A DNA stretch of 64,000 bases from Microbacterium esteraromaticum (GTDB taxonomy: Bacteria; Actinomycetota; Actinomycetes; Actinomycetales; Microbacteriaceae): NCBI RefSeq assembly GCF_014084045.1, contig NZ_CP043732.1, forward strand, positions 248,001-312,000, written 5' to 3'. The position numbers and the translations under genes were made by a program. Within the stretch, counting starts at the first letter, position 1. Every line of letters starts with the position of its first letter. The notes beneath the pieces were generated by a model, which saw only the letters and a list, made by a program, of their open reading frames with translations, had not been told where the DNA came from and did not search any database. Below, piece after piece: positions 1,205 through 64,000 of the stretch.

Positions 1205-1322
1205 TCCGGCGGTGTCCTACTCTCCCACAGGGTCCCCCCTGCAGTACCATCGGCGCTGTGAGGCTTAGCTTCCGGGTTCGGAATGTGACCGGGCGTTTCC
1301 CTCACGCTATGGCCGCCGTAAC
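1205..1322 (-). rRNA. rrf: 5S ribosomal RNA
   Basis: Read on the minus strand the segment begins GTTACGGCGGCCATAGCG and ends near GGACACCGCCGGAC, the expected ends of an actinobacterial 5S rRNA of about 118 bases. It contains the conserved loop CCGAACCCGGAAGCTAAG. It is the last gene of the 16S-23S-5S operon. The ends are placed by eye and may be off by a few bases. Confidence 0.93.
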
Positions 1323-1424
1323 ACTATTGACGTTTCGGCAACATCACTCGCGTGGAGTGTGTTGTTTGGTTCCGACCGTACGTCGAGAACCACAAAGTGG
1401 ACGCGAACCTTCTCGCAGAAGGGT

Positions 1425-6412
<4,988 letters not shown>

Positions 6413-6656
6413 AAAAACAGATGCATACCCACCACCGGGAAAACGGCAATGAGCAGCGAGTTCAATCATGACCAAAAGAGACGAACATCATTGCTGACAT
6501 TCATATACATTGATCCAAAGGAATTCTCAACCAACCCCCACAAGGGTTGGACGAGGATAATTTGGCATTTGACAAGTGCACGCTGTTGAGTTCTCAAGGA
6601 TCGGACGCACCCACACACCCACCCCATCAGGGCAAGAAGCGCAGGGCAACTTCACA

Positions 6657-6684
6657 ATCTTATCCATCCCAGCCCGACTGTCAA
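6657..6684 (-). promoter_or_regulatory. rRNA promoter, proximal
   Basis: On the minus strand there is TTGACA at 6679-6684, a 16-bp spacer, and TAAGAT at 6657-6662, close to the vegetative sigma-factor consensus. It lies about 245 bases before the 16S gene. The 30 bases around it resemble the distal promoter, as if one arose by tandem duplication. Confidence 0.82.
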
Positions 6685-6743
6685 ACCGACACGCCGAGAG
6701 AACCAGGACCAGATCCGCGCCCCGTCTCCGAGGCAACTTCTCC

Positions 6744-6771
6744 AGCCTAACCCATCCGACGAACTTGTCAA
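6744..6771 (-). promoter_or_regulatory. rRNA promoter, distal
   Basis: On the minus strand there is TTGACA at 6766-6771, a 16-bp spacer, and TAGGCT at 6744-6749. The sequence just before the -35 (TTGTCGATTTGACA) and just after the -10 (GGAGAAGTTGCC) is repeated in modified form around the proximal promoter 87 bases downstream, so the operon has two matched tandem promoters. Confidence 0.82.
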
Positions 6772-6985
6772 ATCGACAACCCCGACAGGGATGACCACAC
6801 TCCCCGGGCCAAAGACCCACACCAGAACCGAAGCTCACAATGCTGAAGGTGGATGATTCGCTACTTGGAGGGGAGCCAGGCCCTTCAGGCCTTCCGCTCA
6901 ACCGCTTGGGGCGAACAAGTAATAACTTACGCCGAACCACACACCCCAGCAAATCCCCACCACACCCCGGGCGTGTCGCACGTGC

Positions 6986-8182
6986 TCACCGGGTGCGAAG
7001 ACTCGATCGCTCCCGGCTGACGAGGGGTACACCCGCAGCCGCGATCGCGCAGGTGATGGCGACCGCGATCGTCGGTGCGACCAGCAGCTGGGCCACGTGA
7101 GTGAGCAGCACACCGAGTGGCAGTGTCCCCACGCCCAGGCTGAGCAGTCCCATCGCAGTGAGTCGGTCGTCCGGCTCGACGCTCAGGAGCGCGAGCACCG
7201 GCTGCTGAACGGTGAAGCCCGCCTGTCCGAGACCGGCGATGACGAGGATGGCGAATGACCCGGGTCCTGCATCCACCAGCACGAAGACCGCGAATGCGAC
7301 CAGCGCGAGAATCGAGCTGATCAGGTAGATCCGTCGTGGCTCGAGCGACGGCAGGAGCGCAAGCAGTATCGCGCCCAGCAGCCCGCCGAGCCCGACCATC
7401 GAGGCCAGCCACCCGCTTACGACGGGATCCATTCCGCGCTCGTGCGCGATGAACGGCACCACGGGCACGGCGGCGAAGAACCCCATGTTCATCAGAACGG
7501 TCACGGCCAGCACCTGCTGCAGCGATCTGTTGCCACGCAGGATGCGGAGGTCGTCACCGAGGCGCTGAGGTGGTGCCGCGGGATCGACATCCGCTGCCCG
7601 GCGGCGCAGCACGAGCAGCGCGACCGCCGCAGATGCGAGCACCCCGGCCGTCAGGATCAGGCTCGACCCCACACCGGTGAGGGCGATCACAGCGCCGCCT
7701 GCGAGCGGCCCGATCAACGCGCCGACCGCCGATGAGATCGCCTCGATCGCCATGTATCGCTGACTGCTGCGACGCCCGATCATCGTCTGGAGCAGTGGCA
7801 GCCGCAACGCGATGTTGATGAGATTTCCGCTGCCGAGCACTGTCATGAACATCAGGACCAGCCAGGTGGTCGGGTCGCCGACGGCGGCCACGACTCCCAG
7901 CACAGCGATGATGCCGGCCGCTGCCGCGCACCCGCGCAACGCCGACGTCACCGCCGACTGCCCCCGGGTGAAGCCGGGGATGCGCCGGTATCCGTTGCCG
8001 AACAGCATGGGAAGGAAGTACAGCGCACCAGCCAGCTCGACCAGGATCAGCGGAGCGCCCTCGGCGCTCAGCGCGAAGGCTCCGACGAACAGCCCGATGC
8101 CTCTGACGAAGTTCAGCGCGACGCCCGCGTACAGCATCCATCCGTAGTCCAGGGGCACGGCTGGCGTCCCGCTGCTGCGCAT
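6986..8182 (-). CDS. MFS transporter
   Basis: The protein of 398 residues is almost entirely hydrophobic, with about 12 predicted membrane segments in two halves, as expected for a major facilitator. The first segments are LNFVRGIGLFVGAFAL and LILVELAGALYFLPM. A central cytoplasmic loop, rich in Arg and Asp, separates the halves near residue 205. The chosen ATG at 8182 follows GGGAGAGGG; a longer frame exists upstream but has no initiation signal. It lies 82 bases behind the PuuE-like gene in the same direction, so it may export or import a compound of that catabolic cluster. Substrate unknown. Confidence 0.8.
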   Translation of the reverse strand: MRSSGTPAVPLDYGWMLYAGVALNFVRGIGLFVGAFALSAEGAPLILVELAGALYFLPMLFGNGYRRIPGFTRGQSAVTSALRGCAAAAGIIAVLGVVAAVGDPTTWLVLMFMTVLGSGNLINIALRLPLLQTMIGRRSSQRYMAIEAISSAVGALIGPLAGGAVIALTGVGSSLILTAGVLASAAVALLVLRRRAADVDPAAPPQRLGDDLRILRGNRSLQQVLAVTVLMNMGFFAAVPVVPFIAHERGMDPVVSGWLASMVGLGGLLGAILLALLPSLEPRRIYLISSILALVAFAVFVLVDAGPGSFAILVIAGLGQAGFTVQQPVLALLSVEPDDRLTAMGLLSLGVGTLPLGVLLTHVAQLLVAPTIAVAITCAIAAAGVPLVSRERSSLRTR

Positions 8183-49219: not shown

Positions 49220-50323
<1,104 letters not shown>

Positions 50324-50335
50324 CGAATCAGCACA

Positions 50336-50373
50336 CGCGGCGCGGGCGGACCTTCTGGGTCTCCCGCGCCGCG
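50336..50373 (+). terminator. Hairpin between the MsmK-like and DUF4032 genes
   Basis: An 11-bp GC-rich stem (CGCGGCGCGGG) encloses a second short stem (GACC/GGTC). It sits in the 67 bases between two co-directional genes. It may attenuate or stop transcription, so that the second gene is expressed at lower levels, or stabilise the upstream message. Confidence 0.6.
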
Positions 50374-50390
50374 GTGTTTCCGGAGGAATC

Positions 50391-51695
50391 ATGCAGGACT
50401 CCCTGCGCATCACGGCCAGCTCGGTCGACCCGGGGCTGCTCGGCCTGCCCTGGTCGACCCCGCTCGGCAAGTGGCCGTCCGAGCACATCGTGTCGCTGCC
50501 GAAGGGCCTTTCCCGTCATCTCGTGCGCTTCGCGGACCTGTCGGGTCGGGTGGTCGCGGTCAAGGAGACGACCGCCGACATGGCGCAGCGCGAGTACGAC
50601 ATGCTCGGCAACCTCGGCCGGCTCGACGTGCCGTGCGTGAGCAGGGTGGCCGTGATCGCGGGGCGGACGGATGCCGAAGGCAAGGCACTGCCCGCGGCGC
50701 TGGTGACCTCGCATCTGCGCTTCTCGATGCCCTACCGGGCCCTGTTCACCCAGGTGCTGCGTCCGGACACGGCGACCCGCCTGGTCGATGCGCTCGCGCT
50801 GCTGCTCGTCCGGCTGCACAACGTCGGGTTCTACTGGGGCGACGTGTCGCTGTCGAACACGCTGTTCCGGCGCGACGCAGGAGCGTTCGCGGCGTACCTG
50901 GTCGACGCCGAGACCGGGGAGCTGCACGAGGAGGGGCTGACCGACGGCCAGCGGGCGTACGATCTCGACCTGGCGCGCACCAACATCGCGGGCGAGATCA
51001 TGGATCTCGCGGCGGGCGGGCGGCTGGAGCGCGGCGTGGACGCGCTGGAGATCGCCGATGGCATCGTCTCGTCGTACCGCTCGCTGTGGGCCGCTCTCAC
51101 CGACGAGGAGTCGTTCTCGACCGGTGAGACGTGGCGGATCACCGAGCGCGTCGAGAAGCTCAACGCGCTCGGCTTCGACATCGACGAGATGTCGATGGTC
51201 ACGACGGCCGACGGCACCGTCGTGCGCATACAGCCGAAGGTGGTGGATGCCGGTCACCACCAGCGCCGGCTGATCCGCCTCACCGGTCTCGACGTCGAGG
51301 AGAACCAGGCGCGTCGGCTGCTCAACGACCTCGACGAGTTCCGGGTGCGCTCGACCAAGGCCTGGGCCGACGAGGAGATGTACGCGCACGAATGGCTGAC
51401 CCGGGTCTTCGAGCCCGTCGTGCGCGCGATCCCCTACGACCTGCGGGCCAAGCTCGAGCCCGCGGAGGTGTACCACCAGGTGCTGGAGCACCGCTGGTAT
51501 CTGTCGCAGGCCGAGTCTCGATCGGTGCCGATCGCAGAGGTGCTCACGAGCTACATCAACGACGTGCTGCGGCACCGCCGCGACGAGGCGACCATCATGG
51601 GTCCGCCCACCGAGACGATGAGCGTCCCCGTGATCACCGGCTCCGTCGAGGTCTCCGACGACACGGCTGCCGTCGACTGGCGCGACCTGGTCTGA
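50391..51695 (+). CDS. DUF4032 protein, kinase-like N-terminal domain
   Basis: A 434-residue protein. The first 250 residues have a lipopolysaccharide-kinase-like pattern: VVAVKETTADMAQREYDML (the Lys and Glu of a kinase N-lobe), VRLHNVGFYWGDVSLSNTLF, which resembles the catalytic loop (H-x-x-x-x-D-x-x-x-x-N), and AAYLVDAETGE for the metal-binding Asp. The C-terminal part is DUF4032. Its partner or substrate is not known. A good site, GGAGGAATC, lies before the ATG. It follows the MsmK-type ATPase. Confidence 0.84.
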   Translation: MQDSLRITASSVDPGLLGLPWSTPLGKWPSEHIVSLPKGLSRHLVRFADLSGRVVAVKETTADMAQREYDMLGNLGRLDVPCVSRVAVIAGRTDAEGKALPAALVTSHLRFSMPYRALFTQVLRPDTATRLVDALALLLVRLHNVGFYWGDVSLSNTLFRRDAGAFAAYLVDAETGELHEEGLTDGQRAYDLDLARTNIAGEIMDLAAGGRLERGVDALEIADGIVSSYRSLWAALTDEESFSTGETWRITERVEKLNALGFDIDEMSMVTTADGTVVRIQPKVVDAGHHQRRLIRLTGLDVEENQARRLLNDLDEFRVRSTKAWADEEMYAHEWLTRVFEPVVRAIPYDLRAKLEPAEVYHQVLEHRWYLSQAESRSVPIAEVLTSYINDVLRHRRDEATIMGPPTETMSVPVITGSVEVSDDTAAVDWRDLV

Positions 51696-51788: not shown

Positions 51789-53330
51789 TCAGCAGACCAC
51801 CGCCGACCCGTCGGACCTCGGGTCGCTGGCCGCCGTCATGCCGCCGAGACCGTCGAGCTCGATGAGATTCGCATGGCCGACGACGTCGCTCAGATCGGGG
51901 ATGCGCTTCACCGCGAGGCCGGTTCGGTCGAACTCTGCGACCAGCGCGGCATCGACGCCGTTCTCGACGGTGACCGTGTCGGGCGTGTCGCTCGGCGTCT
52001 GCCGCCCGACCAGCCACCGCGGACGAGTCACCGCCGCGGCGGGATCGGATCCGGTCAGCACGGCCTCCAGCAGCTGCGCGTGGATCTGCGGCTGTCCCTG
52101 CCCGCCCATCGTCGCCGACACCCAGCGCAGCTCTCCGCCGCGCTCGATGAGAACAGGCATCAGCGTATGACCCGGTCGCTTACCCGGCGCGAAGGCGTTC
52201 GCGGCCTCCGGATCGAGCGAGAACGAGGCACCGCGGTTCTGGAACAGCACGCCCGTGTGCGGATCGAGCACGACCGCGCCGAACTGGAAGTACACCGACT
52301 GGATGAGAGACACGGCGTATCCGTCGGCGCTGGCGACCGCGATGCCGACGGTGTCGCCCATCGGGCGGCCGCGGTACGGTGCGTCGACGCCGTCGGGGAC
52401 GCCCACGTCGAGCAGCTGCTCGCCGCTCAGGCCCCCGCGCATCGGGTCGGCGAGGAACTGGTCGCGCACCGCGTTGGTGCGCCGGAAGGCCTCGGCGAGC
52501 AGCACGGGATCGATGGCGCCCGATGCGTCGCTCGCCGCCGTCCAGGACTCTCGCACCGCTCGGAGAAGGGCGAAGCCCTGCGTGTTGGGGTTGCTGCTGA
52601 GCAGACGCAGATCGCCGACGTCGACCGACAGCGCCGGTCCGACCTCCGGCCGGTACTCGCTCAGATCGCGCGGCGAGAGCAGCGAGCCCACCTGGCGCAG
52701 AGTGGCCAGCCAGCGCTCTCCGACGGCTCCGGTGTAGAACTCGTCAGGGCCGCGCTCGGCCAGCCGCTCCAGGGTGCGGGCGAGCGCCGGCTGCCGGAAG
52801 GTCTCGCCGACGCCGAGCGGGCGGTCATCCGCGAAGAACACCTCCCGGCATCCCGGATCCGCTCTGAGTCCGGCGTCGAGGGCGAGGATGCCCTTGGCGA
52901 CCGAGCTGGGCATCGGCACGCCGTCGCGGGCGAGCGCAGCGGCCGGTTCGACCACCTCGCGCCAGGTCTTGGCTCCTCCGAGTGCGAGCAGCCGCTCCAG
53001 GCCGCGCACCGCGCCTGGCACCGTGATCGTGTCGACGCCGTACATCGGCAGCGCATCGCCGTGGCGCTCGCGCATCAGATCGACGGTGGCGCCCTGCGGC
53101 GCGGGGCCCGTGGCGTTCACCTCGATGACGCTGCCGTCCGGCGCGTGCACCAGGGCGACCAGGTCACTGCCCAGCGCCACATTGTTCGGGTAGGTGACGC
53201 AGAGCGCGAGTGCGGCGGCCACAGCGGCGTCGATCGCGTTTCCCCCTTCGCGCAGAATGCGCTCGCCCACCTGGGTGGCGGTGTGGTGGGGTGTCGAGAT
53301 GGCGCCGAATGACGCTGTGCGATGGTTCAT
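51789..53330 (-). CDS. Gamma-glutamyltransferase-family hydrolase
   Basis: This 513-residue Ntn-hydrolase of the gamma-glutamyltransferase family has ISTPHHTATQVGERILREGG at its start, NAIDAAVAAALALCVTYPN, SNPNTQGFALL and a late GGQGQPQIHAQ. The processing site is recognised at GDTVGIAVASADGYAVSLIQ, where Thr would be the nucleophile and the usual TTHFSV is replaced by TVGIAV. There is no signal peptide, so it acts in the cytoplasm. It lies at the end of the minus-strand operon and overlaps the PucR gene by four bases. HpxW (oxamate amidohydrolase) of purine catabolism is a related member, and an amide substrate other than glutathione is likely. Confidence 0.85.
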   Translation of the reverse strand: MNHRTASFGAISTPHHTATQVGERILREGGNAIDAAVAAALALCVTYPNNVALGSDLVALVHAPDGSVIEVNATGPAPQGATVDLMRERHGDALPMYGVDTITVPGAVRGLERLLALGGAKTWREVVEPAAALARDGVPMPSSVAKGILALDAGLRADPGCREVFFADDRPLGVGETFRQPALARTLERLAERGPDEFYTGAVGERWLATLRQVGSLLSPRDLSEYRPEVGPALSVDVGDLRLLSSNPNTQGFALLRAVRESWTAASDASGAIDPVLLAEAFRRTNAVRDQFLADPMRGGLSGEQLLDVGVPDGVDAPYRGRPMGDTVGIAVASADGYAVSLIQSVYFQFGAVVLDPHTGVLFQNRGASFSLDPEAANAFAPGKRPGHTLMPVLIERGGELRWVSATMGGQGQPQIHAQLLEAVLTGSDPAAAVTRPRWLVGRQTPSDTPDTVTVENGVDAALVAEFDRTGLAVKRIPDLSDVVGHANLIELDGLGGMTAASDPRSDGSAVVC

Positions 53331-55018
53331 TCTTCCCCCTGCATGGGCGGCTGCGCGCGCCTGCGACGCAGCTGATCGGCCTCTGCGCGTCGTGCGCGCA
53401 GATCGGTTGCGAGGATCGCGACCTGCAGCCGCAGGCACGTCTCCTCATCGTCGAGGCTGATGCCGAGCTGACGCTCGACGCGGTCCAGCTGCTCGTACAG
53501 CCATTGCCGTGAGACGAACGAGCGCTTGGCCGCCAGGGACTTGTTGCGACCTGCGAAGAGGAACGACCGAAGCGCGTCGACGAGCTCGCCGTCGCGTCCT
53601 CCCGCACCGCGCAGAGCCGCGAGGGTGTCGTCGCCGAACCGCTTCAGCCGAGGGTCGGACCCCAGCGAGAGGAGCAGCCCGTCGAGACCGAGGTCGGCAC
53701 GGTGCACGGCCCGCGCCTCGACGCCCAGCAGCGCTGCGATCTCCGCGGTCTCCCGCGCTTCGCGGAGGATGTCCCCCGCAGCCGGCGCACCCGGCCATGG
53801 CGAGGCGAGCCCCACCACCAGGTGCGCGAGTCCGATGCCGGACACCCCGCGCTCGATCTGCTCGGCTTCGACGCCGTCCGTGCGGCACACGAGCGCCACC
53901 AGCGCGTCGTGACCGAGCTGGGCGAGCATGATCGGCAGCGAGAGGCGCACGCAGACCGTGCGCAGTCCCGCTGCGAATCCGTGCAGCAGGTCGTGCTGCT
54001 CCCGGGCGCTCAGCGCATCCGGGTCGTGGATCCTCGCCCCGAGCGCGATCAGCGTGCCTGAGCCGACGGGGAAGCCGATCGCCTCGGCCGTCTCGGAAGC
54101 CTCGTCGGCGGCGCGACCACCGGCGATGAGCCCCTCGAGCAGCTCTCGCTGGGTCTTGGCGCCGAGGGCGCCCCGATCGCGAGCGACGAGCCGCCCGAGC
54201 GCCACGGTGGTCGCGGCGCGTTCGATGAGCATGACGAGCGTCGATCGCACCGAGCTCAACGGGTCCTGGTCGAGGCCACGTGGCAGGCTCGTGTCGGCCG
54301 CCGACATGATGATGAGCCGTCCCCAGTCGTCGCCCTTGATCCCGACGGTGGAGGTGAGCCACCCGGTGCGCGGATCGTAATCCGTGCGCCGTACGGCCCG
54401 GTGACGCTCGGTGTGCTCCGCCCATTCCGTGATCACGTCGCCACGGGGCCTTGGCCCCTCGGCGACCTCGAGAAGCTCATGGCGCAGGTCTTCGAGCACG
54501 ACGGGCCTGCCCGCGACGCGCGCGACCTCGTGCAGCAGGTCGGCCGCGGCGCTGCCGTCCATCACCATCGTGCGCATCATCTCGTGGATCTGCACGGACT
54601 GCTGCAGCTGCTCGACCTGGGCGTCGACGAGCCGGGCATGCACATCCTCCGTGATCGTGACGAATGCGGTGTGCCGGCGCAGCACGACGAGCGGGATCGA
54701 GTGCTCATCCGAGGCATCCATCATCGCGGCCGGCAGACTGCGGTCGAAGTGCGGGCCGAGCCCCACGATGATCGCGGCGACGTCCACGCTCGCGAGCGCG
54801 GCGATGTAGCCGCGCAGTCCCGCATCGTCCTCGGGGAGCGCGATGCCGGTGGTGAGGATCATCTCCTGTCCGCGCAGATGACCGGCGATGTCGGCCAGCT
54901 CGCTCACGTGCACCCAGCGCACGGGACGCGTGAGCCCCGTCGCGCCCGCGACGACAACGGGGTCCGCGGCGGCGAGCGACTCGAACTGGAGCACCTGCGC
55001 GACGCTCGGCAGCTGCAT
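53327..55018 (-). CDS. PucR-family transcriptional regulator
   Basis: A 563-residue regulator. The N-terminal PucR domain starts LPSVAQVLQFESLAAADPVV and includes RWVHVSELADIAGHLRGQEM. The middle is GAF/CdaR-like, and the C-terminus is the PucR helix-turn-helix (RSFVSRQWLYEQLDRVERQL, then DDEETCLRLQVAI). It typically activates genes for purine or other nitrogenous compounds. ATG 55018 is preferred over GTG 55042 because homologues start at this point; the site is weak. It is cotranscribed inside the catabolic operon, so it probably responds to a substrate or intermediate. Confidence 0.88.
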   Translation of the reverse strand: MQLPSVAQVLQFESLAAADPVVVAGATGLTRPVRWVHVSELADIAGHLRGQEMILTTGIALPEDDAGLRGYIAALASVDVAAIIVGLGPHFDRSLPAAMMDASDEHSIPLVVLRRHTAFVTITEDVHARLVDAQVEQLQQSVQIHEMMRTMVMDGSAAADLLHEVARVAGRPVVLEDLRHELLEVAEGPRPRGDVITEWAEHTERHRAVRRTDYDPRTGWLTSTVGIKGDDWGRLIIMSAADTSLPRGLDQDPLSSVRSTLVMLIERAATTVALGRLVARDRGALGAKTQRELLEGLIAGGRAADEASETAEAIGFPVGSGTLIALGARIHDPDALSAREQHDLLHGFAAGLRTVCVRLSLPIMLAQLGHDALVALVCRTDGVEAEQIERGVSGIGLAHLVVGLASPWPGAPAAGDILREARETAEIAALLGVEARAVHRADLGLDGLLLSLGSDPRLKRFGDDTLAALRGAGGRDGELVDALRSFLFAGRNKSLAAKRSFVSRQWLYEQLDRVERQLGISLDDEETCLRLQVAILATDLRARRAEADQLRRRRAQPPMQGEE

Positions 55019-55049
55019 CCGACTCGCCTTGCCCGGGTTCACCGCTCGG

Positions 55050-56213
55050 TCACCATTTCCGCACCAGCGTCCACAGCAGCTCTGCTCCCAGTTCGATATC
55101 GGCCAATGACACGTACTCGTCGGCGGTGTGCGCCTGGTCCGTGGCTCCGGGACCGAGCACCGTGCACGAGTCGCTGCCGGTGAGCGCGGCGATCATCGAC
55201 GCGTCGGTGTAGGCCTCATGCCCGTCTGCGCCGCCGATCTCCGGCTCTGCGCCAGTGTGCTCGACATAGGCCTCGACGAGGTCCCTGATGATCTTCGCAT
55301 CATCGGAGGCGCCGACGGGCGGACGACGCGCGCCCAGCAGCTCGATGGCGTACTCGGCGCCGGGGTGCTCGCGCATCACGGCGTCGGCGACGCGCTGCAC
55401 GATGCCGACGGCGTCTTCGGGGACCATCGGCGGCACGATGCGCAGATCGAACTCGGCTGTGGCACTTCCTGGCACGACATTCGTCGAGACGCCGCCGTGG
55501 AACGTGCCGCACGTGAATCGTGCACGACCGAGGATCCCGTCCTCGAACGGCAGCGCCGAGAAGGTCGTCTTGGCCCGCGTCATGATCTCGGCCAGAACGT
55601 GGTTCGCGTCGATGCCGAGGTGGGCTCGGCCCGCATGCGCCATCTTCCCGGTCACGGTGATCGTCAGCCAGCGAAGACCCATCTGGCGCTGACGAAGACG
55701 CATGCCCGTGGGCTCCGGGGCCAGCACCTGGTCGGTGGGCCGGATCAGTCCATCGCGCACGAGCTGGTGCGCTCCCAGCATCCCGGGCGCCTCCTCATCG
55801 ACGGTGGCCACCAGCACGACGTCCCCGCGAGGCTGTTCCCCGGTTCGCACGAGCGCATCGAGCAGACCGATGCCCAGCGCGAGACCGGCCTTCATGTCGC
55901 ACGCGCCCCGTCCGTAGATGCGTCCGTCATCGATCACCCCGCCCAGCGGCGGATAGGTCCACCCCTCTCCGATCGGGACGGTGTCCATGTGGCCGAGGAT
56001 CACGAGCCGGGGAGCATCCGGATCGCTCCCCGCGACCTGGGTGAGGATGTTGTCCCTTCCGGGCTCGACCTCGTGGCGCTGCACGGCGAGGCCGACCCGT
56101 TCCAGTCGCGAGACCACCCAGTCCGCGCACTCGGCCTCGAGGGGGCCGGGATTCTGGCTGTCGATGCTGATGAGGGTGCGGGTGTCTTCGACCACCGAGT
56201 CGACGTCGATCAT
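55050..56213 (-). CDS. M20-family amide hydrolase (ArgE/DapE type)
   Basis: The 387-residue zinc hydrolase has LGHMDTVPIGEG with the first His and Asp ligands, YGRGACDMKAGLA with the bridging Asp, ATVDEEAPGMLGA with the catalytic Glu pair, and a late AHTADEYVS with the terminal His. The dimerisation domain is present (KMAHAGRAHLGIDAN). The family removes N-acyl or carbamoyl groups from amino-acid-like compounds. It sits 31 bases before PucR and 65 bases beyond the SDR; that gap has no gene. In the cluster it could release an amino acid from an acylated intermediate. Confidence 0.86.
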   Translation of the reverse strand: MIDVDSVVEDTRTLISIDSQNPGPLEAECADWVVSRLERVGLAVQRHEVEPGRDNILTQVAGSDPDAPRLVILGHMDTVPIGEGWTYPPLGGVIDDGRIYGRGACDMKAGLALGIGLLDALVRTGEQPRGDVVLVATVDEEAPGMLGAHQLVRDGLIRPTDQVLAPEPTGMRLRQRQMGLRWLTITVTGKMAHAGRAHLGIDANHVLAEIMTRAKTTFSALPFEDGILGRARFTCGTFHGGVSTNVVPGSATAEFDLRIVPPMVPEDAVGIVQRVADAVMREHPGAEYAIELLGARRPPVGASDDAKIIRDLVEAYVEHTGAEPEIGGADGHEAYTDASMIAALTGSDSCTVLGPGATDQAHTADEYVSLADIELGAELLWTLVRKW

Positions 56214-56278
56214 GTCTCTTCTTTCATGCCAGAGCCGCTCCTTCGCGGAGCCGCGGTTCGGGGTTGGGCTGCGCGGGG

Positions 56279-57010
56279 CTAGTTCGGTGCGCCGTCGACG
56301 ACGAGCGACTGCCCGCTGATGCCGCTGGATCGGCGGGAGGCGAGGAAGGCGACGGCCTCGGCGACCTCGTCCACCGTGATCAGTCGACGGAAGGCCGAGT
56401 CTCCGGCGAACCGGTCGAGCATCGCTTCTGCGGAGGTCCCCTCCCTCTCGGCGACCGCCGCCGCGAGATCGCGCAGCAGCGGTGAGTCGACGTTCCCGGG
56501 ACAGACGGTGTTCGCCCGAGCCCCGCGCGCTGCGATCTCAGCCGCGAACGACTGCACGAAGCCGATCAGCCCGAACTTCGTCGAGCAGTACACCGCTCCG
56601 CCCGCCTCGCCCGTCAAGCCGGCGACGGATGCCAGGAAGACATACGCGTCCGGTGAGCACGACTCCTCGCAGGCCGCGGCGATGTGGAAGGCGCCCTGCA
56701 GATTGACGCGCTGCATCCGCTCGTACATCGACCAGTCGGTCTCCGCCACCGGTCCCGTGTAGTTGATCCCCACGGCCGACACCACGGCCGTTATGTCGGT
56801 GCAGGCCGCGGCGACGGCCCGGACGCTCTCGAGATCGCCGACGTCGCAGGACGCGAACGTGTGTCCCTCCCCCGGCAGGTCCGAGATCAGGTGGCCTCGG
56901 TCTCCCAGATCGGCGACGACCAGCTCATCGCCGTCGGCGGCCAGCCGACGACAGATCGCCAGTCCGATCGATCCCGTGCCGCCGAAGACGAGGACGCGCC
57001 GCGCGCTCAT
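56279..57010 (-). CDS. Short-chain dehydrogenase/reductase
   Basis: A 243-residue SDR. VLVFGGTGSIGLAICRRL is the nucleotide site, with VVADLGDRG after it favouring NAD. SAVGINYTGP, FLASVAGLTGEAGG and YCSTK supply the active-site Ser, Tyr and Lys. PGNVDSPLL follows. The start overlaps the end of the E1 beta gene by four bases (ATGA). Together these genes form a pathway that processes an oxidised carbon chain. Confidence 0.86.
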   Translation of the reverse strand: MSARRVLVFGGTGSIGLAICRRLAADGDELVVADLGDRGHLISDLPGEGHTFASCDVGDLESVRAVAAACTDITAVVSAVGINYTGPVAETDWSMYERMQRVNLQGAFHIAAACEESCSPDAYVFLASVAGLTGEAGGAVYCSTKFGLIGFVQSFAAEIAARGARANTVCPGNVDSPLLRDLAAAVAEREGTSAEAMLDRFAGDSAFRRLITVDEVAEAVAFLASRRSSGISGQSLVVDGAPN

Positions 57011-58017
57011 CGTCCCGCCCCTGACTCGCGGACGGCGCGCGCGATGCTGGCAGCGCTCGGAAGCACGGCCTGCTCGAGCGTCTTCGACGCCGGAACGGGC
57101 ACATTGGCCAGGCCATGCCTGCTGACGCTGTCGAGTCCATCCAGACCAAGCCGCTCGATCGCGCCGGTGATCAGCTCGCCGCTCAGCCCGAACCCGAGAT
57201 AGTCCTCGTCGACGACGAGCAGACGCCTCGTCTTGCGCAGCGATGCAGTGATGCCGTCCCAATCCAGCGGCACGACGCTGCGCAGATCGAGCACTTCGAC
57301 GTCGATGCCATCGAGGGCGAGCGCCTCCGCGGCGTCGAGCGCGTCGCCTACGCTTGCGCTCAGCGTGGCGATCGTGACATCGCGGCCCTCTCGCACCACG
57401 TGCGCTCGGTCGAGCGGAACCGTGTACCGCTCGCGCGGAACGTCGGTGCCGTGCGAGAAGCTCGAGGCCTTCTTGAGGAGGAGGCCCTTGTGCTCGATGA
57501 ACACCACGGGGTCGGGCGACTGGACAGCGGCCGCCATCATGCCCTTGCTGTCGTGCGGGCTCGACGGAGCGACCACGCGGAGGCCGGGCAGATGGGCGTA
57601 CAGCCCCCACAGCGTCTGGGAATGCTGAGCGGCCGATCCGATCGCGCCGCCCGCGGTCTTGATAACGATGGGCATCGGCGTCGCACCACCCGACATGTAC
57701 GGGTTCTTGGCTATGGCATTGAAAACCTGCTCGAGGCAGACGCCGATGAAGTCGGCGAACATGATCTCCACCACCGGCCGGTAGCCCTCCATGGCCAGGC
57801 CGACGGCCATGCCCGTGAAGGCCATCTCGGAGATGGGGGTGTCGAGCACCCGCTCGGCCCCGAAGGCCTTCTGCAGTCCACGGGTGCTGCCGAAGACCCC
57901 GCCTTGCCTGCCGACGTCCTCGCCGATGACGAGCACGTGCTCGTCGGCCTCCATCTCGAGCCGGAGGCCCTCGGCCACCGCCTGCGAGACGTTGATGTTC
58001 TGTCTGATCGCGTCCAT
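57007..58017 (-). CDS. 2-oxoacid/acetoin dehydrogenase E1 component, beta subunit
   Basis: The 336-residue protein has GEDVGRQGGVFGSTRGL at 34-50, ISEMAFTGMAVGLAMEGYRP with the Glu that activates thiamine diphosphate, and VEIMFADFIGVCLEQVFN. The C-terminal domain has VVDEDYLGFGLSGELI. ATG at 58017 follows GGAG by seven bases; GTG at 58023 is an alternative. It is partnered with the alpha gene. No E2 acyltransferase or E3 lies in the window. Confidence 0.88.
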   Translation of the reverse strand: MDAIRQNINVSQAVAEGLRLEMEADEHVLVIGEDVGRQGGVFGSTRGLQKAFGAERVLDTPISEMAFTGMAVGLAMEGYRPVVEIMFADFIGVCLEQVFNAIAKNPYMSGGATPMPIVIKTAGGAIGSAAQHSQTLWGLYAHLPGLRVVAPSSPHDSKGMMAAAVQSPDPVVFIEHKGLLLKKASSFSHGTDVPRERYTVPLDRAHVVREGRDVTIATLSASVGDALDAAEALALDGIDVEVLDLRSVVPLDWDGITASLRKTRRLLVVDEDYLGFGLSGELITGAIERLGLDGLDSVSRHGLANVPVPASKTLEQAVLPSAASIARAVRESGAGR

Positions 58018-58019
58018 GC

Positions 58020-59000
58020 TCACACTCCGGCCGGAAGATCGAGTCCTGATGCAAAGACGTGCCGCCTGGCCGTCTCCGGATCGGGGAAGGGATCGGCGAG
58101 CACGCGCTGTACCAGGCCGCCGATCTCGGCGCGCACCTCCTCATCGATGCGGGCGAGTTCGGGCTCGTCGGCCGCGCCGCTCTCCAGCAGCTCGGCGCGC
58201 GCCATCGCAAGCGGGTCGCGCTGCTCTCGACGGCTCTCCTTGTCGCCCTGGTCGCGGTACAGATCGAGGTCGCCCTCGTAGTGGCCGCGGAACCGGTAGC
58301 AGGTGGCCTCGACGATGACGGGCCCTCCCCCGGCGCGGGCCGAGTCGACCGCGTCGATGAACGCTTCGCGCACCCGCTCGTAGTCGAGCCCGTCGACACG
58401 GACGCCGCGTGCGCCGAAGGCGGCGGCCCGCTCGGCGATCGTTGCGGTAGCGCTCGCCTGGCTGAACGGCACGGATATCGCCCATTCGTTGTTCTCGACG
58501 ACGACCACCAGCGGCAGCTTCATCGCCCCGGCCATGTTCATGCTCTCCGCGAACCCTCCCGTGTTCACCGACCCGTCGCCGACGACCGCGACGGCGACCG
58601 CGTCATCGCCCCGCAGCCTCGCCGCGTATGCGTGCCCGAGCGCGACCGGGAGCGAACCGCCCACTATGCCGGTCGTCGAGAACCGGCGTGCCGGGTCGAA
58701 CAGGTGCATGTGCCCGCCGAAACCACCGCAGAGCCCGGTGGCGCGCTCGAAGATCTCGGCGAGCATCGGGTGCAGCGGAACGCCTTTGGCGATGGCATGC
58801 AGGTGGTTGCGGTGCGTGCTGACCATGGCGTCGCTGTCACGCAGCACCCCGGCGAGCGCGGCGCCGATCGCCTCCTGGCCGATCGCGAGGTGCACTTCGC
58901 CGTGGATGTGCCGCTCGGCCACTCCGCGGGCGCAGGCCTCCTCGAACTCGCGCATCAACCTCATCAGGCGATACGTCTCCGTCGACGTGCAGGGCATCAT
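58020..59000 (-). CDS. 2-oxoacid/acetoin dehydrogenase E1 component, alpha subunit
   Basis: The 326-residue protein is the TPP-binding E1 alpha. The cofactor motif is GDGSVNTGGFAESMNMA (about 150-166). HGEVHLAIGQEAIGAAL and THRNHLHAIAKG are conserved, with GFGGHMHLFD. It closely resembles the acetoin/pyruvate dehydrogenase type. The start overlaps the VOC gene's stop. A complete dehydrogenase would also require E2 and E3, which are absent here. Confidence 0.88.
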   Translation of the reverse strand: MMPCTSTETYRLMRLMREFEEACARGVAERHIHGEVHLAIGQEAIGAALAGVLRDSDAMVSTHRNHLHAIAKGVPLHPMLAEIFERATGLCGGFGGHMHLFDPARRFSTTGIVGGSLPVALGHAYAARLRGDDAVAVAVVGDGSVNTGGFAESMNMAGAMKLPLVVVVENNEWAISVPFSQASATATIAERAAAFGARGVRVDGLDYERVREAFIDAVDSARAGGGPVIVEATCYRFRGHYEGDLDLYRDQGDKESRREQRDPLAMARAELLESGAADEPELARIDEEVRAEIGGLVQRVLADPFPDPETARRHVFASGLDLPAGV

Positions 59001-59497
59001 TCTCCTCCCTCTGGGGTCCGCTCGTGCGGTTGCTCGATCTCGATCACGGTTCCCCCGCCGGTGCGGAAGTAGGCGGCAGGGCCCTCGTCGAACTCGACGA
59101 TCTCCCCGAGCATCCGGCCGCCTTCGTCACGGATCAGCTCGGCGGCGGCCGCGATGTCGTCGACGAGATAGGCGGTGTGGGCCACGCCGACGTGCACCGG
59201 CGCCGCCGGATCGGCGTCGTCAGGCACGGCATGCGCGCGGATGAGCTCGATACGGGTTCGCGTGCGCGGGTTGTACAGCTGCGCGAGATCGCACGAGACG
59301 CCGGGGATGCCGACCATGCGCGCGAACTGGTCGGCCATCCCGCGCACGCTGAAGCCGAGCTCGTAGCCGAGGGTGCGCCGGTAGAAGTCGATGTCGCCAT
59401 CGAAGTCGGCCGTCACGATGCCGGTGTGGTGCTGCGCCCGGATGCCGAGCAGCCCGCCGTGCGGGTGCAGCCGAGGCGATACGGATTCGGTCGTCAT
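58997..59497 (-). CDS. VOC-superfamily (glyoxalase/dioxygenase fold) protein
   Basis: A 166-residue protein with the paired beta-alpha-beta-beta-beta units of the vicinal oxygen chelate fold. HHTGIVTADFDGDIDFYRRT is the first module with a metal His, VGVAHTAYLVDDIAAAAELI the second His, and TVIEIEQPH contains the last Glu. Members are glyoxalases, ring-cleaving dioxygenases or epimerases (methylmalonyl-CoA epimerase). It starts with overlap of the SMP-30 gene. An isomerase or lyase for a pathway intermediate is the most that can be said. Confidence 0.8.
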   Translation of the reverse strand: MTTESVSPRLHPHGGLLGIRAQHHTGIVTADFDGDIDFYRRTLGYELGFSVRGMADQFARMVGIPGVSCDLAQLYNPRTRTRIELIRAHAVPDDADPAAPVHVGVAHTAYLVDDIAAAAELIRDEGGRMLGEIVEFDEGPAAYFRTGGGTVIEIEQPHERTPEGGE

Positions 59498-60360
59498 AGT
59501 TCGGTCTCCTCCTGCGGAAGCCCGCCGATCGGCAGCGAGATGCCGAACACGGATCCGGCCGTCGGCTGCTGCCGTGCCTCTTCGACGCCGAGGTCGACGG
59601 TGCCGGTGGTGATGTAGAGCGTCTGCAGCCCAGCACCGCCGAAGGCGCAGCTGGTCACGTTGCGTGCGGGAACGAGGATCTCCTGACTCCAGGTGCCGTC
59701 GAGCTCGATCCGCCGCAGCCGACCGCCCGCCCACATCGCGACCCAGATGCCACCGCCGGCGTCGACGGCGATCCCGTCGGGCGTCCCCAGGTCGGGGTCC
59801 ACCTCGATGAGCACCCGGTCTCCCGACACGTCCTGCGTCTCGGGGTCGTAGTCGAGGACGGTGACCGCCCGACGAACGCTGTCGACGAGGTAGAGCGATC
59901 GGCCATCCGGAGAGAAGGCCATGCCGTTGGGCATCCCGAGCCCGGCACGCACCTCGGTCGGCGCGGATTCGCCGGCTCGCAGCCGGAAGAGGGAGCCACC
60001 GGCGGCGAGGTCGTGCCGCATGCTGCCGAACCAGAGCTCGCCCCCGGGGCCGACGGCACCGTCCGAGAGCCGCAGCCCCGTCTCCCGCTGGAGCACGCTG
60101 ATGCGCCCCAGCTCATGGAAGTCCGCGTCGAGGACGGCCACGTCGAGGTCATGAAGGGCCACGTAGCCGCCGCGGCGCCGCGGAAGCACGGCGCTGACCG
60201 GAGAGCCGAAGACCTTCATCGTCCGCGTACGGCCATCCTGGCTGCGCATCACCTTGCCGTCGGGGATGTCGACCCACAGCAGCCCGGCTCCGTGCCACAC
60301 CGGCCCTTCACCCAGCAGCGCACCGGCCTCGAAGACCGGCCTCGCCTCCAAACGGATCAT
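59494..60360 (-). CDS. SMP-30/gluconolactonase-family protein
   Basis: The 288-residue beta-propeller has the SMP-30 calcium/zinc ligands in GEGPVWHGAGLLWVDIP (Glu), GLGMPNGMAFSPDGRSLYL (Asn) and GTPDGIAVDAGGGIWVA (Asp). Family members hydrolyse sugar or other lactones. It begins with ATGA overlap of the amidohydrolase gene and ends with overlap of the VOC gene. A lactone product of the upstream amidohydrolase step could be its substrate. Confidence 0.85.
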   Translation of the reverse strand: MIRLEARPVFEAGALLGEGPVWHGAGLLWVDIPDGKVMRSQDGRTRTMKVFGSPVSAVLPRRRGGYVALHDLDVAVLDADFHELGRISVLQRETGLRLSDGAVGPGGELWFGSMRHDLAAGGSLFRLRAGESAPTEVRAGLGMPNGMAFSPDGRSLYLVDSVRRAVTVLDYDPETQDVSGDRVLIEVDPDLGTPDGIAVDAGGGIWVAMWAGGRLRRIELDGTWSQEILVPARNVTSCAFGGAGLQTLYITTGTVDLGVEEARQQPTAGSVFGISLPIGGLPQEETEL

Positions 60361-61748
60361 CTCGCCTCCGAACTCAGCTCGAGCACCCGGCGAAGCGGCT
60401 CCGCCAGCGCTCGGATCCGGGCCTGTCGCCCGGACGCGTCGGCCCCCACGGCCAGATCGAGGTGCTCGCGCATCCGCTCGACCTCTCTTGTGTCGTTCTC
60501 CCCCGCCGGGAGATGCGTCTCGCCGGCGATGACCGTGCGAGTGAGCGCCGCGTCCACCACCTGATCGAGGATCTGCTGGGCACCCCCTTCGCACTCGGCA
60601 TCGACCACGATGAAATCGGCGTCGGCTCCAGGTGCGATGGCACCACCGCGGCTGCCGATGGCTGCCGCGCCTCCCCTGGTCGCCATGCGCATGGCATCGG
60701 CGGCGGCGATCGGGTCGCCGGCCTCTGCGCTCGTGCGCACGGCCTCGCGGATCTCGGCGAAGAGATCGGGGCGGTCGGCGACCTGGCTGTCCATTCCCAG
60801 CGCGGAGCGGACGCCGCGCCTGAGCCATTCGCCGACCGGCGCCGAGCCGACGCCGAGCCGGCGATTCGATCCGGGACAGTGCACCAGGCTCGCACCTGCC
60901 GAGGCGACCACGTCGATCTCCTCCGGCATCAGATGCACGCCGTGCGCGTACGAGGCGAACGGACCGACCAGGCCGAAGCGCCGGAGCCGCGCGAGCGGAT
61001 CCTCCTCGCCTCCCAGCCAGGTGCGCTGCGCCGCGCTCTCGAGCAGGTGCGTGTGAACGCGCAGGTCTCCCCTGTGCGCGGCGAGCACGCTCAGGCCCTC
61101 CTCCGAGCACCACTGCGGCGCCACCGGGCCGATGGCGAGCCGCACCCGCGACTGCGCCTCGCCGACGAGCACACGGGCTGCGCGGATCAGCTCCGGCCAG
61201 TCCGCCACGGCCATGCCGCGCTCGGGGAGCGGGATGCCGGCCTGGTCATCGCCGTCGGTCACCGGAAGGTACTCCGCCTGGTCGGTGAAGCCGAGCACGA
61301 CCACGGCACGCAGCCCGGTGCGTCCGAGGGCGCGGAGTGCGGCGTCGAGCTCGTCGAGGCGGGCATCCGCGTCTCCCCAGCTGTGCAGCACGATCTGCGC
61401 GGCAGTCGCCCCCGCTTGGAGCAGCTCCGCCGCAGCGACGGTCGCGTCGTCCAGCGCGGGCAGCGGTGTGAGCGCCGAGAGCGCGTAGGCCCACTGCTCG
61501 AACGACATCCCCGGGAGGGAGGCCTGAGCGACGGCCGGCGTGCTGCGAAGGTGCGTGTGCGCGTCCACGAGCCCCGGCATCGTCGTCCCCGGCAGGTGCT
61601 CGATGTCGCCGGCGCCGACCGCGCGGGCCAGCTCCGAGCCGGCGATCACATCGAGGATGATGCCGTCCTCCACCAGCAGGCCGCGGTCGGATTCCACCTG
61701 GGCGTCTGCGTCGCGGAGCAGCCGCTCGCACCGGTATCCGCGGATCAT
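60357..61748 (-). CDS. Amidohydrolase-family metal-dependent hydrolase (TRZ/ATZ/cytosine-deaminase type)
   Basis: A 463-residue amidohydrolase. PGLVDAHTHLRSTPAVA has the HxH pair at about residue 62, RVHTHLLESAAQR the third His, VHCPGSNRRLG the conserved His-x-x-x-S-N, and GMDSQVADRPDLF the Asp. RGGAAAIGSRGGAIAPGADADFIVVD closes the beta-sandwich. This matches the TRZ/ATZ and deaminase branch, which removes amino groups from ring compounds. It overlaps both neighbours, linking it to the importer. A nitrogen heterocycle substrate is likely. Confidence 0.85.
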   Translation of the reverse strand: MIRGYRCERLLRDADAQVESDRGLLVEDGIILDVIAGSELARAVGAGDIEHLPGTTMPGLVDAHTHLRSTPAVAQASLPGMSFEQWAYALSALTPLPALDDATVAAAELLQAGATAAQIVLHSWGDADARLDELDAALRALGRTGLRAVVVLGFTDQAEYLPVTDGDDQAGIPLPERGMAVADWPELIRAARVLVGEAQSRVRLAIGPVAPQWCSEEGLSVLAAHRGDLRVHTHLLESAAQRTWLGGEEDPLARLRRFGLVGPFASYAHGVHLMPEEIDVVASAGASLVHCPGSNRRLGVGSAPVGEWLRRGVRSALGMDSQVADRPDLFAEIREAVRTSAEAGDPIAAADAMRMATRGGAAAIGSRGGAIAPGADADFIVVDAECEGGAQQILDQVVDAALTRTVIAGETHLPAGENDTREVERMREHLDLAVGADASGRQARIRALAEPLRRVLELSSEAR

Positions 61749-62536
61749 GTCGTCCTCGCCCAGGTGATCGCGGTGCGCTCGAGCACCGCCACGATCGAGA
61801 ACAGCGCGGCCGCGAGGATCGCAGAGAGCACGACGGCCGACCACATGGTCTGCATCTGCAGCGCGAGCCACGAGGTGATGACCAGGTGGCCGAGGCCGCC
61901 GCCGACGATCCATTCGGCGGTCATCACACCCAGCACGGCGTTCGGCGCAGCGATGCGCAGCGCGCTGAAGAACGACGGAAGGGAAGCCGGGATGCGCACT
62001 CGCGCATAGGACTGAAGACGCGACGCGTTCAGCACCTTCATCAGCTCCATCGACTCCGCAGATACCGAGTTCAAGCCCTGCAGCGAGTTGATCAGCGTCG
62101 GGAAGAAGACGATCAGGGCGGCCACGACGACGGTCGCCGCGGGGCCGCGGCCGAACGCGAGCGTGATGAACGGAGCGAGCGCGACGACCGGGATGGATCG
62201 CAGGACGAGCGCTCCAGGGAAGATGATGCTCGATACCGTCCGCGATGACGAGATGAGCAGGGCGCCGACGTATCCGACGATGTTTCCCGCCACGAAACCG
62301 GCTGCGGTCGACAGCGCGGTCTGAGCCAGAGCGCTCAGTGCAGTGCCCCAGTCGGCCTGCAGGGCGATGTCGGACGGCGCAGGCAGGATGAACGACGGGA
62401 TGCGGAAGATCCAGACCGCCAGCTGCCAGACGACCACCGCGGCGGCGAGGACGCCGAGCGAGATCAGTGCGCTCGTGGGTGTGACCAGACGACGGCGGGG
62501 GCGCCTCGGCAGCGCAAGGACACGGGTGAGCGTCAT
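61745..62536 (-). CDS. ABC transporter permease (NitT/TauT family), second
   Basis: A 263-residue integral membrane protein with six segments and the loop EAA-like FFSALRIAAPNAVLGVMTAEW that contacts the ATPase. TPTSALISLGVLAAAVVVWQ starts it and RSIPVVALAPFITLAFG lies in the middle. It overlaps the amidohydrolase start by four bases and the other permease stop by four. With two different permeases and one ATPase the importer resembles those for nitrate, taurine, alkanesulfonate or thiamine precursors. Confidence 0.88.
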   Translation of the reverse strand: MTLTRVLALPRRPRRRLVTPTSALISLGVLAAAVVVWQLAVWIFRIPSFILPAPSDIALQADWGTALSALAQTALSTAAGFVAGNIVGYVGALLISSSRTVSSIIFPGALVLRSIPVVALAPFITLAFGRGPAATVVVAALIVFFPTLINSLQGLNSVSAESMELMKVLNASRLQSYARVRIPASLPSFFSALRIAAPNAVLGVMTAEWIVGGGLGHLVITSWLALQMQTMWSAVVLSAILAAALFSIVAVLERTAITWARTT

Positions 62537-63303
62537 ACCTCGGCCCTCCGCTTCGCGCTCTCGTGCCAGGGCGTGGCGAACCGCGCGATCACACCGAACA
62601 GCACGACGAGCAGACCGTTGACCGCGGTGGCGATGACGAGGATCGCCCACAGGTCGGCCATCTTGTACCCGAACATCGCGTGCATCATGGCGAGCCCCAG
62701 GCCCGATTCCGCACCGATCCACTCCGCGATGATCGCGGCGATGAAGGCCGCGGGGGCGGCGATCTTGAGCGATGCGAGGAAGTCCGGCACGACCGCGGGT
62801 GCGCGCAGCCGGAGCAGGGTGGAGAAGTAGGAGAGGTTGAGCACCCGGCCCAGCTCCAGCACGCGCGGGTCCTGCGTGCGCAGCGCGCCGGTGAGGTTCA
62901 CGAGCACGGGGAAATACGCCCCCAGCATCGCGATCGAGATCTTGCTCCAGATGCCGAGCCCGAGAGCCGCGACCAGCGCCGGTGCCAGCGCGATCAGCGG
63001 CACCGAGTACACGATGAGTGCGAGCCGGTAGACGCCTTCGCCTGCCACGCGAAAGCGGTCGACGATGATCGTCAGCAGCACGGCGACGACGATCGCGAGG
63101 GCCAGACCGGCCGCCGTCTCGCCGAGTGTCGTGGCGGTGTTGATCATCAGCGGAGTGCGCCTGTCCCAGATCGTCTGCAGTATCTCGGTCGGCGCTATCA
63201 GGGGCGATGCCGGGTCTTCGACGCCGCTGCCCACGATCTGCCACGCGACGATGAGAGCCGCGTAGAAGAGCACAGGCGCTCCCACGCGCGTCCACCTAGT
63301 CAT
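62533..63303 (-). CDS. ABC transporter permease (NitT/TauT family), first
   Basis: A 256-residue permease with about six membrane segments. PVLFYAALIVAWQIVGSGVE starts it, YSVPLIALAPALVAALG is the central conserved region and SLKIAAPAAFIAAIIAEW is the ATPase-contact loop. It starts at ATG 63303 (or GTG 63309), overlapping the ATPase gene stop. No substrate-binding protein gene is visible before the right edge; it may lie beyond. Confidence 0.88.
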   Translation of the reverse strand: MTRWTRVGAPVLFYAALIVAWQIVGSGVEDPASPLIAPTEILQTIWDRRTPLMINTATTLGETAAGLALAIVVAVLLTIIVDRFRVAGEGVYRLALIVYSVPLIALAPALVAALGLGIWSKISIAMLGAYFPVLVNLTGALRTQDPRVLELGRVLNLSYFSTLLRLRAPAVVPDFLASLKIAAPAAFIAAIIAEWIGAESGLGLAMMHAMFGYKMADLWAILVIATAVNGLLVVLFGVIARFATPWHESAKRRAEV

Positions 63304-64000
63304 CGACACCCCGGTAGGCGTCTGTCAGCAGGGCGGTGAGCCGGTCCTCGTACGCCAGGAACTCCGGCGACCTGGTCAGCTCCTGCGTGCGCGGACGAGG
63401 CAGCCCGATGCGCTCGTCGGCGATGATGCGACCCGGGTTCCTGGCCATGACGAGCACGCGGTCCGACATGAAGACGGCCTCGCTGACGTTGTGCGTGACG
63501 AGGATCGCCGTGGTGCCGGACTCCAGCCAGATCCTCTGCAGCTCTTCGTTCATCTGCCGGCGCCGCAGCTCGTCGAGTCCGTTGAACGGCTCGTCGAGGA
63601 ACAGGATGCGAGGTGAGAGGACGAGCGCGCGGGCGATCGCGACGCGCCGCGCCATGCCGCCCGAGATCTGCGATGGCATCCGACGCTCGAACCCCTCGAG
63701 CCCCACCAGTCTGAGCATCTCCGTGGCCCGCTCCGTGCGCTCGCGCTTGGAGACCCCGGCGAGATCCAGAGGCAGAGCGGTGTTCGACAGGCAGTCGAGC
63801 CACGGCAGCAGCACCGGATCCTGGAAGACGAAGCCGAAGTCGCCGTTCTGACGCGCCTGGCTCGGAGTGCGACCGAACAGGCTGAGCGTTCCTCGCGACG
63901 GCTGCAGGATGTCGGAGATGGTTCGCAGCAGCGTCGATTTGCCGCATCCCGATGGACCGAGAAGGGTGGTGAATCCTCCGACGGGGATGTCGAAGGTGAC
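63296..64000 (-). CDS. ABC transporter ATPase (SsuB/TauB type), cut by window edge
   Basis: The gene continues past the right edge; about 234 residues are visible. GPSGCGKSTLLRTISDI is Walker A, FVFQDPVLLPWL the Q loop, SQISGGMARRVAIARALVL the signature, and ILFLDEPFNGLDELRR Walker B. VTHNVSEAVF gives the switch His. It pairs with the two permeases. The N-terminal residues and any binding protein lie outside the window. The frame continues through the start of the sequence beyond the ATG at 63814, so that internal ATG is not the true start. Confidence 0.92.
   Translation of the reverse strand, partial: VTFDIPVGGFTTLLGPSGCGKSTLLRTISDILQPSRGTLSLFGRTPSQARQNGDFGFVFQDPVLLPWLDCLSNTALPLDLAGVSKRERTERATEMLRLVGLEGFERRMPSQISGGMARRVAIARALVLSPRILFLDEPFNGLDELRRRQMNEELQRIWLESGTTAILVTHNVSEAVFMSDRVLVMARNPGRIIADERIGLPRPRTQELTRSPEFLAYEDRLTALLTDAYRGVDD

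Follow-up and report, generated by a model that had tools for sequence, protein, structure and literature searches.

Which compound a long row of import and degradation genes serves, and whether that row forms a single pathway, is the question raised by the right end of a 64,000-nucleotide stretch of the Microbacterium esteraromaticum genome (3.37 Mb, one contig; NZ_CP043732.1, positions 248,001 to 312,000; G000:C1:248001-312000), hereafter called the window. A sequence-only reading had proposed here a catabolic operon of at least 12 genes for a nitrogen-containing ring. We find 14 genes in the operon, and their order, apart from one gene, recurs in five other genomes. We consider it probable that they form one catabolic operon, spread horizontally, that serves a single small nitrogen-containing compound. 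This compound would carry an N-C-N-C=O unit and be either a ureide or a ring of amino-pyrimidinone type. Positions are those of the window, continued past 64000; adding 248000 gives the genome position.

Genes were named with Pfam and NCBIfam profiles run on the window and the adjoining stretch. The operon spans 51789-65948 on the minus strand and contains, from its first gene to its last (aa, amino acids):

64905-65948, minus strand: SBP, NMT1/THI5-like binding protein, 347 aa (PF09084, E 1.7e-45)
64090-64821, minus strand: AH2, short Amidohydro_2 protein, 243 aa (PF04909, E 5.3e-23)
63296-64093, minus strand: ABC transporter ATPase, 265 aa (PF00005, E 2.9e-31)
62533-63309, minus strand: ABC permease 1, start at 63309 or 63303 (PF00528, E 3.2e-22)
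61745-62536, minus strand: ABC permease 2, 263 aa, start taken from the ATGA overlap (PF00528, E 1.7e-21 for the longer frame)
60357-61748, minus strand: AH1, Amidohydro_1 protein of the guanine/8-oxoguanine/TRZ-ATZ deaminase branch, 463 aa (PF01979, E 4e-38 for the longer frame)
59494-60360, minus strand: SMP-30/gluconolactonase-like protein (SMP30), 288 aa (PF08450, E 3.3e-63 for the longer frame)
58997-59497, minus strand: VOC protein, 166 aa (PF13669, PF00903)
58020-59000, minus strand: E1 alpha (E1a), thiamin-diphosphate enzyme, 326 aa (PF00676, E 1.8e-66)
57007-58023, minus strand: E1 beta (E1b), 338 aa (PF02779, PF02780)
56279-57010, minus strand: SDR dehydrogenase, 243 aa (PF13561, E 1.5e-37 for the longer frame)
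55050-56213, minus strand: M20 amide hydrolase of ArgE/DapE type, 387 aa (PF01546, E 5.2e-34)
53327-55042, minus strand: PucR-family regulator, 571 aa (PF07905, E 7.7e-34; PF13556)
51789-53330, minus strand: gamma-glutamyltransferase-like (GGT-like) Ntn hydrolase, 513 aa (PF01019, E 9.5e-106 for the longer frame)

All 12 families named by the sequence-only reading are present and run in one direction (51789-64093), and the operon in fact extends to 14 genes. The ATPase gene is cut by the window edge at 64000; the two further genes, AH2 and SBP, lie outside the window and precede the 12, SBP being the binding protein that the reading had expected to the right. Most genes are joined by four-base overlaps, as claimed, namely at nine of the 13 junctions (eight ATGA, one GTGA). 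The ATPase and permease 1 genes overlap by 8 or 14 bases, according to the start chosen, and the remaining three junctions are gaps of 7, 65 and 83 bases.

Searches with AH1 and AH2 revealed 11 other genomes, and all 11 loci were fetched. Five of them (G079, G595, G816, G849 and G1051) retain the full order SBP-AH2-ATPase-permease-permease-AH1-SMP30-GGT-VOC-E1a-E1b-SDR-M20-PucR, the very kind of shared order that the earlier reading had suggested looking for, with protein identities to the window of about 33-79%, GGT aside. Judged by this order, which is that of the window except for GGT, the gene set is more than a chance neighbourhood, and the proposal of a catabolic operon that brings its own importer and PucR-type regulator is well supported. 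It is very likely that the set represents one pathway.

Parts of the cluster occur in six more genomes. G189 has only SBP-AH2-ATPase-permease-permease-AH1, and its genome contains no M20 relative at E <= 1e-60. In G791, E1b, E1a, VOC and a TauE-family gene share one strand, and GGT, M20, AH2, AH1, SMP30 and a protein labelled U485 the other; a 7.6-kb piece of G828 carries AH2, AH1, SMP30 and U485. In G256 and G489, AH2 adjoins an allophanate hydrolase with VOC, E1a, E1b and SDR near, joined in G256 by M20, GGT and U485. Contigs L028 and L034 measure 7.6 and 7.3 kb, and absences there mean little.

The cassette is rare. With the own genome counted, AH1 was found in two of 149 genomes of the genus (E <= 1e-60) and, by profile at E <= 1e-70, in two of 396 genomes of the phylum and six of 398 of the family; AH2 was found in four of 396 phylum genomes (E <= 1e-40) and three of 155 class genomes (E <= 1e-60). 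Within the families of G256 and G189, AH2 (E <= 1e-60) occurred in two of 35 and one of 39 genomes, only known ones being found again. In a tree of AH2, E1a, E1b and M20 from eight loci, G079, which belongs to the same genus as the window genome, groups with G595, G816 and G849 (support 1.000) and not with the window. Since the same-genus locus falls with the others, the cassette has probably spread horizontally.

An indication of the substrate comes from these relatives. In four of the five full-order loci (G079, G595, G816, G849), the gene after PucR encodes an amidase that ends in an allophanate-hydrolase C-terminal (AH_C) domain; in G079 and G816 the PucR stop and the first start codon of this gene's frame lie in a four-base overlap. 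With the genes beside AH2 in G256 and G489, allophanate hydrolase is part of the cluster in six of the 11 other genomes, the amidase and AH_C domains being found in loci L016, L034, L035, L070, L071 and L072. All three full-length proteins scanned (G079, G816, G256) exceed the TIGR02713 cut-off of 511.05, with 602, 631 and 719 bits in L071, L016 and L035. In G1051, the fifth full-order locus, GGT and VOC flank a lone AH_C-domain gene, and PucR is followed by a DUF1275 gene on the opposite strand. A pathway that passes through allophanate must contain an N-C(=O)-N-C(=O) unit at one stage or another. Taken together with the placement of AH1 in the guanine-deaminase branch, the allophanate hydrolase of the relatives points to a substrate with an N-C-N-C=O unit, which may be a ureide or a ring of the pterin, flavin or pyrimidine type. 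The nitrogen-containing ring of the sequence-only reading thereby becomes likelier, with a ureide admitted beside it.

AH1 carries the HxH, HxxE, H and D set of guanine, 8-oxoguanine and TRZ deaminases, and its H64, H66, R68, H234, E237, H269 and D320 are invariant in all 24 aligned sequences; the roles of the metal and catalytic residues we assume by analogy with known deaminases. For the 25 listed of 30 NCBIfam models, AH1 scores below the curated cut-off of every named deaminase, the top match being 8-oxoguanine deaminase (125.4 bits, cut-off 532). It thus shares branch and residues with this group and differs from it by its far lower scores. Eight relatives are 47-97% identical to AH1, and the others among 45 listed are at most 43% identical. 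A contig scan with AH1 also returned three loci at 26-27% identity, which were discarded, as they hold no other cluster gene but ATPase-family matches in L014.

AH2 is more unusual. Amidohydro_2 proteins (PF04909) are expected to carry an HxH metal motif after strand 1, and AH2 matches the profile and the fold, its predicted model resembling 3cjp. The motif was found in none of 34 aligned relatives and at none of the 12 loci. DAYNN occupies the expected place in all 34 relatives and at 11 of the 12 loci, with DAYNT in G1022. The 34 proteins were picked from 120 listed of 652 relatives (E <= 1e-40), which include ones labelled Leucobacter, Leifsonia, Streptomyces, Nocardioides and Pontimonas. 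A Niallia relative (30% identity) lies among sugar-type genes.

Signatures of the later enzymes are likewise kept. SMP30 retains its E, N and D residues, and the VOC protein an H/E/H/E set which we take to be that of glyoxalase I. The M20 protein retains its metal residues and scores 223 bits with TIGR01910 (cut-off 217.6), placing it in the ArgE/DapE type, N-carbamoyl amidohydrolases scoring far lower. A residue-pattern check missed the M20 of L035, the VOC of L025 and the SMP30 of L016; alignments show the residue in each, only its neighbours differing. For SDR, the 25 NCBIfam matches shown of 213 were all below cut-off. The nearest solved relatives of E1a and E1b are the alpha and beta chains of pyruvate dehydrogenase E1 (3duf, 1w85 and 6cer for beta), and the thiamin motif GDGxVNT and the Glu and His of PISE and QHSQ are present in 8/8 aligned sequences, a set that left out the G1051 and Shinella copies. 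Pfam detects no E2 or E3 among the 14 genes; E2-type genes (PF00198) occur at five other places in the genome, with six matches.

E1a-E1b-lipoyl-E2 operons share the adjacency of the two subunits with our operon and differ from it in the lipoyl gene: in relatives H2, H4, H6 and H13 the gene immediately following E1b encodes a lipoyl domain, and the operon has no lipoyl or E2 gene. Identities reach at most 50% for E1b and, among the rows shown, 44% for E1a, with 56% for a decayed Shinella copy. The four loci were set aside as being of E1-E2 type.

The GGT-like gene is the one that sets the window apart. At the other loci GGT stands between SMP30 and VOC; in the window these two overlap by four bases with no gene between, and the GGT-like gene directly follows PucR, in the slot that allophanate hydrolase occupies at four other loci. 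Identity to the GGT of the other loci is only 27-34%, and by sequence the protein is of a different branch. In the alignment with 2e0w, its GDTVG falls on the Thr of QATHY, so that the Thr at the processing site, presumably the nucleophile, is retained. The gamma-glutamyl pocket, which in the Escherichia coli enzyme consists of R114, D433 and S462-S463, is absent, the aligned residues being T, S and H-T, and TIGR00066 gives 264 bits, below its cut-off of 357.85. The family named by the sequence-only reading stands, but the protein does not look like a gamma-glutamyl enzyme; a gamma-glutamyl route was set aside because of the missing pocket residues. Its best structural-database matches are 2i3o and 2nlz, with 5hft also among the matches.

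These features suggest the following course. The importer of SBP, permeases and ATPase would take up the compound, and AH1 and AH2 would act first, the invariant R68 beside the AH1 metal site being a candidate for holding a carboxylate. Because G189 retains only the importer, AH2 and AH1, these probably act early. SMP30 would open a lactone, and M20 and the GGT-like hydrolase would cleave amide bonds. In the six relatives allophanate hydrolase would end the urea-like piece, a step for which the window GGT-like protein, standing in its slot, may substitute. VOC and then E1a/E1b would act on the carbon piece, be it a dicarbonyl, an acyloin, a 2-oxo acid or a heterocyclic acid; that VOC and E1a act in sequence is probable because VOC lies directly before E1a in all nine fetched loci holding both, the window aside and a decayed Shinella copy included. 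SDR would supply a redox step, PucR would sense the substrate or an intermediate, and E1 would either borrow E2 and E3 from elsewhere or work alone. The order of steps, each substrate and this choice for E1 are what we infer. Of the stepwise deamination, lactone opening and amide hydrolysis in the sequence-only reading, the catalytic signatures are there and the reactions themselves are predicted.

Several observations weigh against a single pathway for one compound. No allophanate hydrolase was found around the window operon, where the search was limited to the 31 kb of L009 and L010, or in what was read of G189, G791 and G828, and the stretches read of G256 and G489 contain no AH1. G1022, the sixth partial locus, has AH2 at 57% identity and a GGT-like gene; besides these it shows one weak match to an amidase and, for the rest, other hydrolases. 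Few of the enzymes are as poorly conserved as AH1 and SMP30, and for this reason substrates may differ between loci. AH2, finally, may be no enzyme.

Some of these points would fit two neighbouring units rather than one pathway, an importer-deaminase and an E1/M20 unit: G189 has the first only, and G256 and G489 have AH2 with the second and no AH1 nearby. Since AH2 is common to both units, five other genomes keep the two joined in this order and stops and starts overlap in the window, we regard this division as unlikely. A route for ureides or purine derivatives (allantoin, hydantoin, oxamate), in which M20 would be a ureido hydrolase and the GGT-like protein an oxamate amidohydrolase, would suit the joint presence of PucR, amidohydrolases, M20 and GGT-like proteins and the allophanate hydrolase of the relatives, as well as the match to 5hft, the structure of HpxW. 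We judge it unlikely: the M20 type disagrees, no allantoinase is among the AH1 models shown, the best GGT matches are other structures, and E1, VOC, SDR and SMP30 are left without explanation. Thiamin-pyrimidine salvage or degradation is suggested by SBP, whose closest solved relatives are 4nmy and 3ix1, the latter named formylaminopyrimidine-binding protein, and by the deformylase YlmB, an ArgE-type protein. Both structures, which are of thiamin/pyrimidine-binding type, share a stretch L-D-W-x-P-N-x-x-H-T, in place of which SBP has L-G-W-L-K-L-T-Q-F-G; an Rfam scan of L009 detected no riboswitch, and salvage gives no role to E1, VOC, SDR or SMP30. Salvage was set aside on the SBP stretch and the lack of a riboswitch, and this whole explanation is highly improbable. 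Hardly better placed is the breakdown of a mycosporine-like amino acid or amino-cyclohexenone, with AH1 hydrolysing the imine, M20 the vinylogous N-acyl-amino-acid bond and U485 opening the ring with oxygen in some relatives. It leaves allophanate hydrolase without a role, U485 is absent from the window genome (E 1e-80) and from what was read at the five full-order loci, and the open-licence literature, judged from listings, gave no matching gene cluster; we consider it very unlikely.

A more specific form of our proposal has a pteridine-, flavin- or pyrazine-fused pyrimidine as the substrate: AH1 would remove an exocyclic amino group, the pyrimidine piece would leave as allophanate or urea, and E1 would decarboxylate a heterocyclic acid or cleave a dicarbonyl or acyloin piece. 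The AH1 branch with its invariant Arg68 and the allophanate hydrolase in six of 11 relatives speak for it, and so does the lum cluster of Nocardioides simplex for lumichrome (riboflavin) catabolism. As reported, lum is an actinobacterial cluster in which hydrolases dismantle the pyrimidine ring, an amino-quinoxaline acid is deaminated by a hydrolase, and a two-subunit thiamin-dependent enzyme decarboxylates the heterocycle, with transport-related genes besides (PMC12746152). The same paper gives 20 and 23 kDa for LumK and LumL, against 326 and 338 aa for E1a and E1b; it lists P450, Rieske, xanthine-oxidase-type and catechol dioxygenase genes and, in the portion consulted, mentions no GGT-like, M20 or PucR protein (PMC12746152). 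Pfam finds no P450, Rieske, flavin or molybdenum oxygenase among our 14 genes. Membership in the lumichrome cluster was set aside on these differences in gene content. With the riboswitch missing in L009 as well, a fused pyrimidine is possible, and we put it forward tentatively.

Pathways ending in an AtzF-type allophanate hydrolase resemble the clusters of the six relatives and differ from the window operon, which has a GGT-like gene in that slot; the enzymes that would act earlier in the operon's pathway are not known from the breakdown of cyanuric acid or urea. The sequence-only reading knew of no described pathway with this gene set, and the open-licence literature yielded none either, compound searches being judged from listings, gene-family searches returning nothing and most subscription papers being outside coverage.

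U485 (L029:9011-10468, L028:2904-4343, L035:1282-2838), a protein of related loci, has 229 relatives at E <= 1e-5 and is 58-59% identical to two proteins labelled Chloroflexaceae. It has no Pfam match at E <= 0.001 and no PDB sequence match at E <= 1. Foldseek initially gave no match at E <= 0.001 and on a second look matched its predicted fold to the questin-oxidase/hydroquinone-dioxygenase type; it resembles questin oxidase BTG13 and hydroquinone dioxygenase PaD in this fold and differs from them in sequence (7-10% identity in the fold alignments). Neither U485 (E <= 1e-5) nor M20 (E <= 1e-60) had a match when plasmids were searched.

A decayed piece of the cluster lies on a plasmid of an alphaproteobacterium, Shinella sp. 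PSBB067 (NZ_CP069304.1; L069:15522-17751): VOC and E1a are followed by about 130 residues of E1b running into a GGT-like C-terminal piece in another frame. Plasmid relatives of SBP (H32, H37, H42, H45; about 28-33%) have no common enzyme set and were rejected. One of them, on Agrobacterium tumefaciens pAt15955 (H37; L043:3384-12636), stands in the order SBP-amidohydrolase-ATPase-permease-permease; some 2 kb away lie a lipoyl gene and a fused E1 alpha/beta, and the locus is possibly a distant parallel. The G1022 cluster (L067:307-14986) comprises the AH2 relative, the GGT-like gene, two Amidohydro_3 genes, a phosphotriesterase-family gene, an N,N-dimethylformamidase-beta-like gene and transporter genes.

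Around the operon, a DUF4032 gene (50025-51695) follows on the opposite strand. Upstream, a minus-strand gene at 66168-68429 (L010:4168-6429) encodes a thioester domain and three T-Q ester-bond domains, a make-up presumably like that of Gram-positive surface adhesins. Between it and the operon, a hairpin with a 13-bp stem (66124-66155) lies in a stretch that folds better than 200 of 200 shuffles; a terminator consensus scan, with two matches against 2.6 expected, did not list it. A promoter scan found none. At the other end of the window, positions 1-8000 have a G+C content of 0.59-0.60, against 0.67-0.71 elsewhere in it, and are possibly a foreign stretch.

Beyond these conclusions, we offer as a speculation, at rather long odds, that some natural nitrogen heterocycle present in abundance (pterin-, flavin- or pyrimidine-like) is degraded by a new pathway, which the operon encodes and which has passed among actinobacteria and once to a proteobacterial plasmid. 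AH2 without HxH and a two-subunit E1 without E2 would then perform chemistry new to their families, the window GGT-like protein would have replaced allophanate hydrolase, and other lineages would have added a dioxygenase of questin-oxidase fold.

The allophanate hydrolase of the relatives narrows the substrate to a testable class of compounds. Once it is named, all 14 genes and many of the 652 AH2 relatives would gain a role, and AH2 and the E2-less E1 could represent new chemistry in well-studied families.

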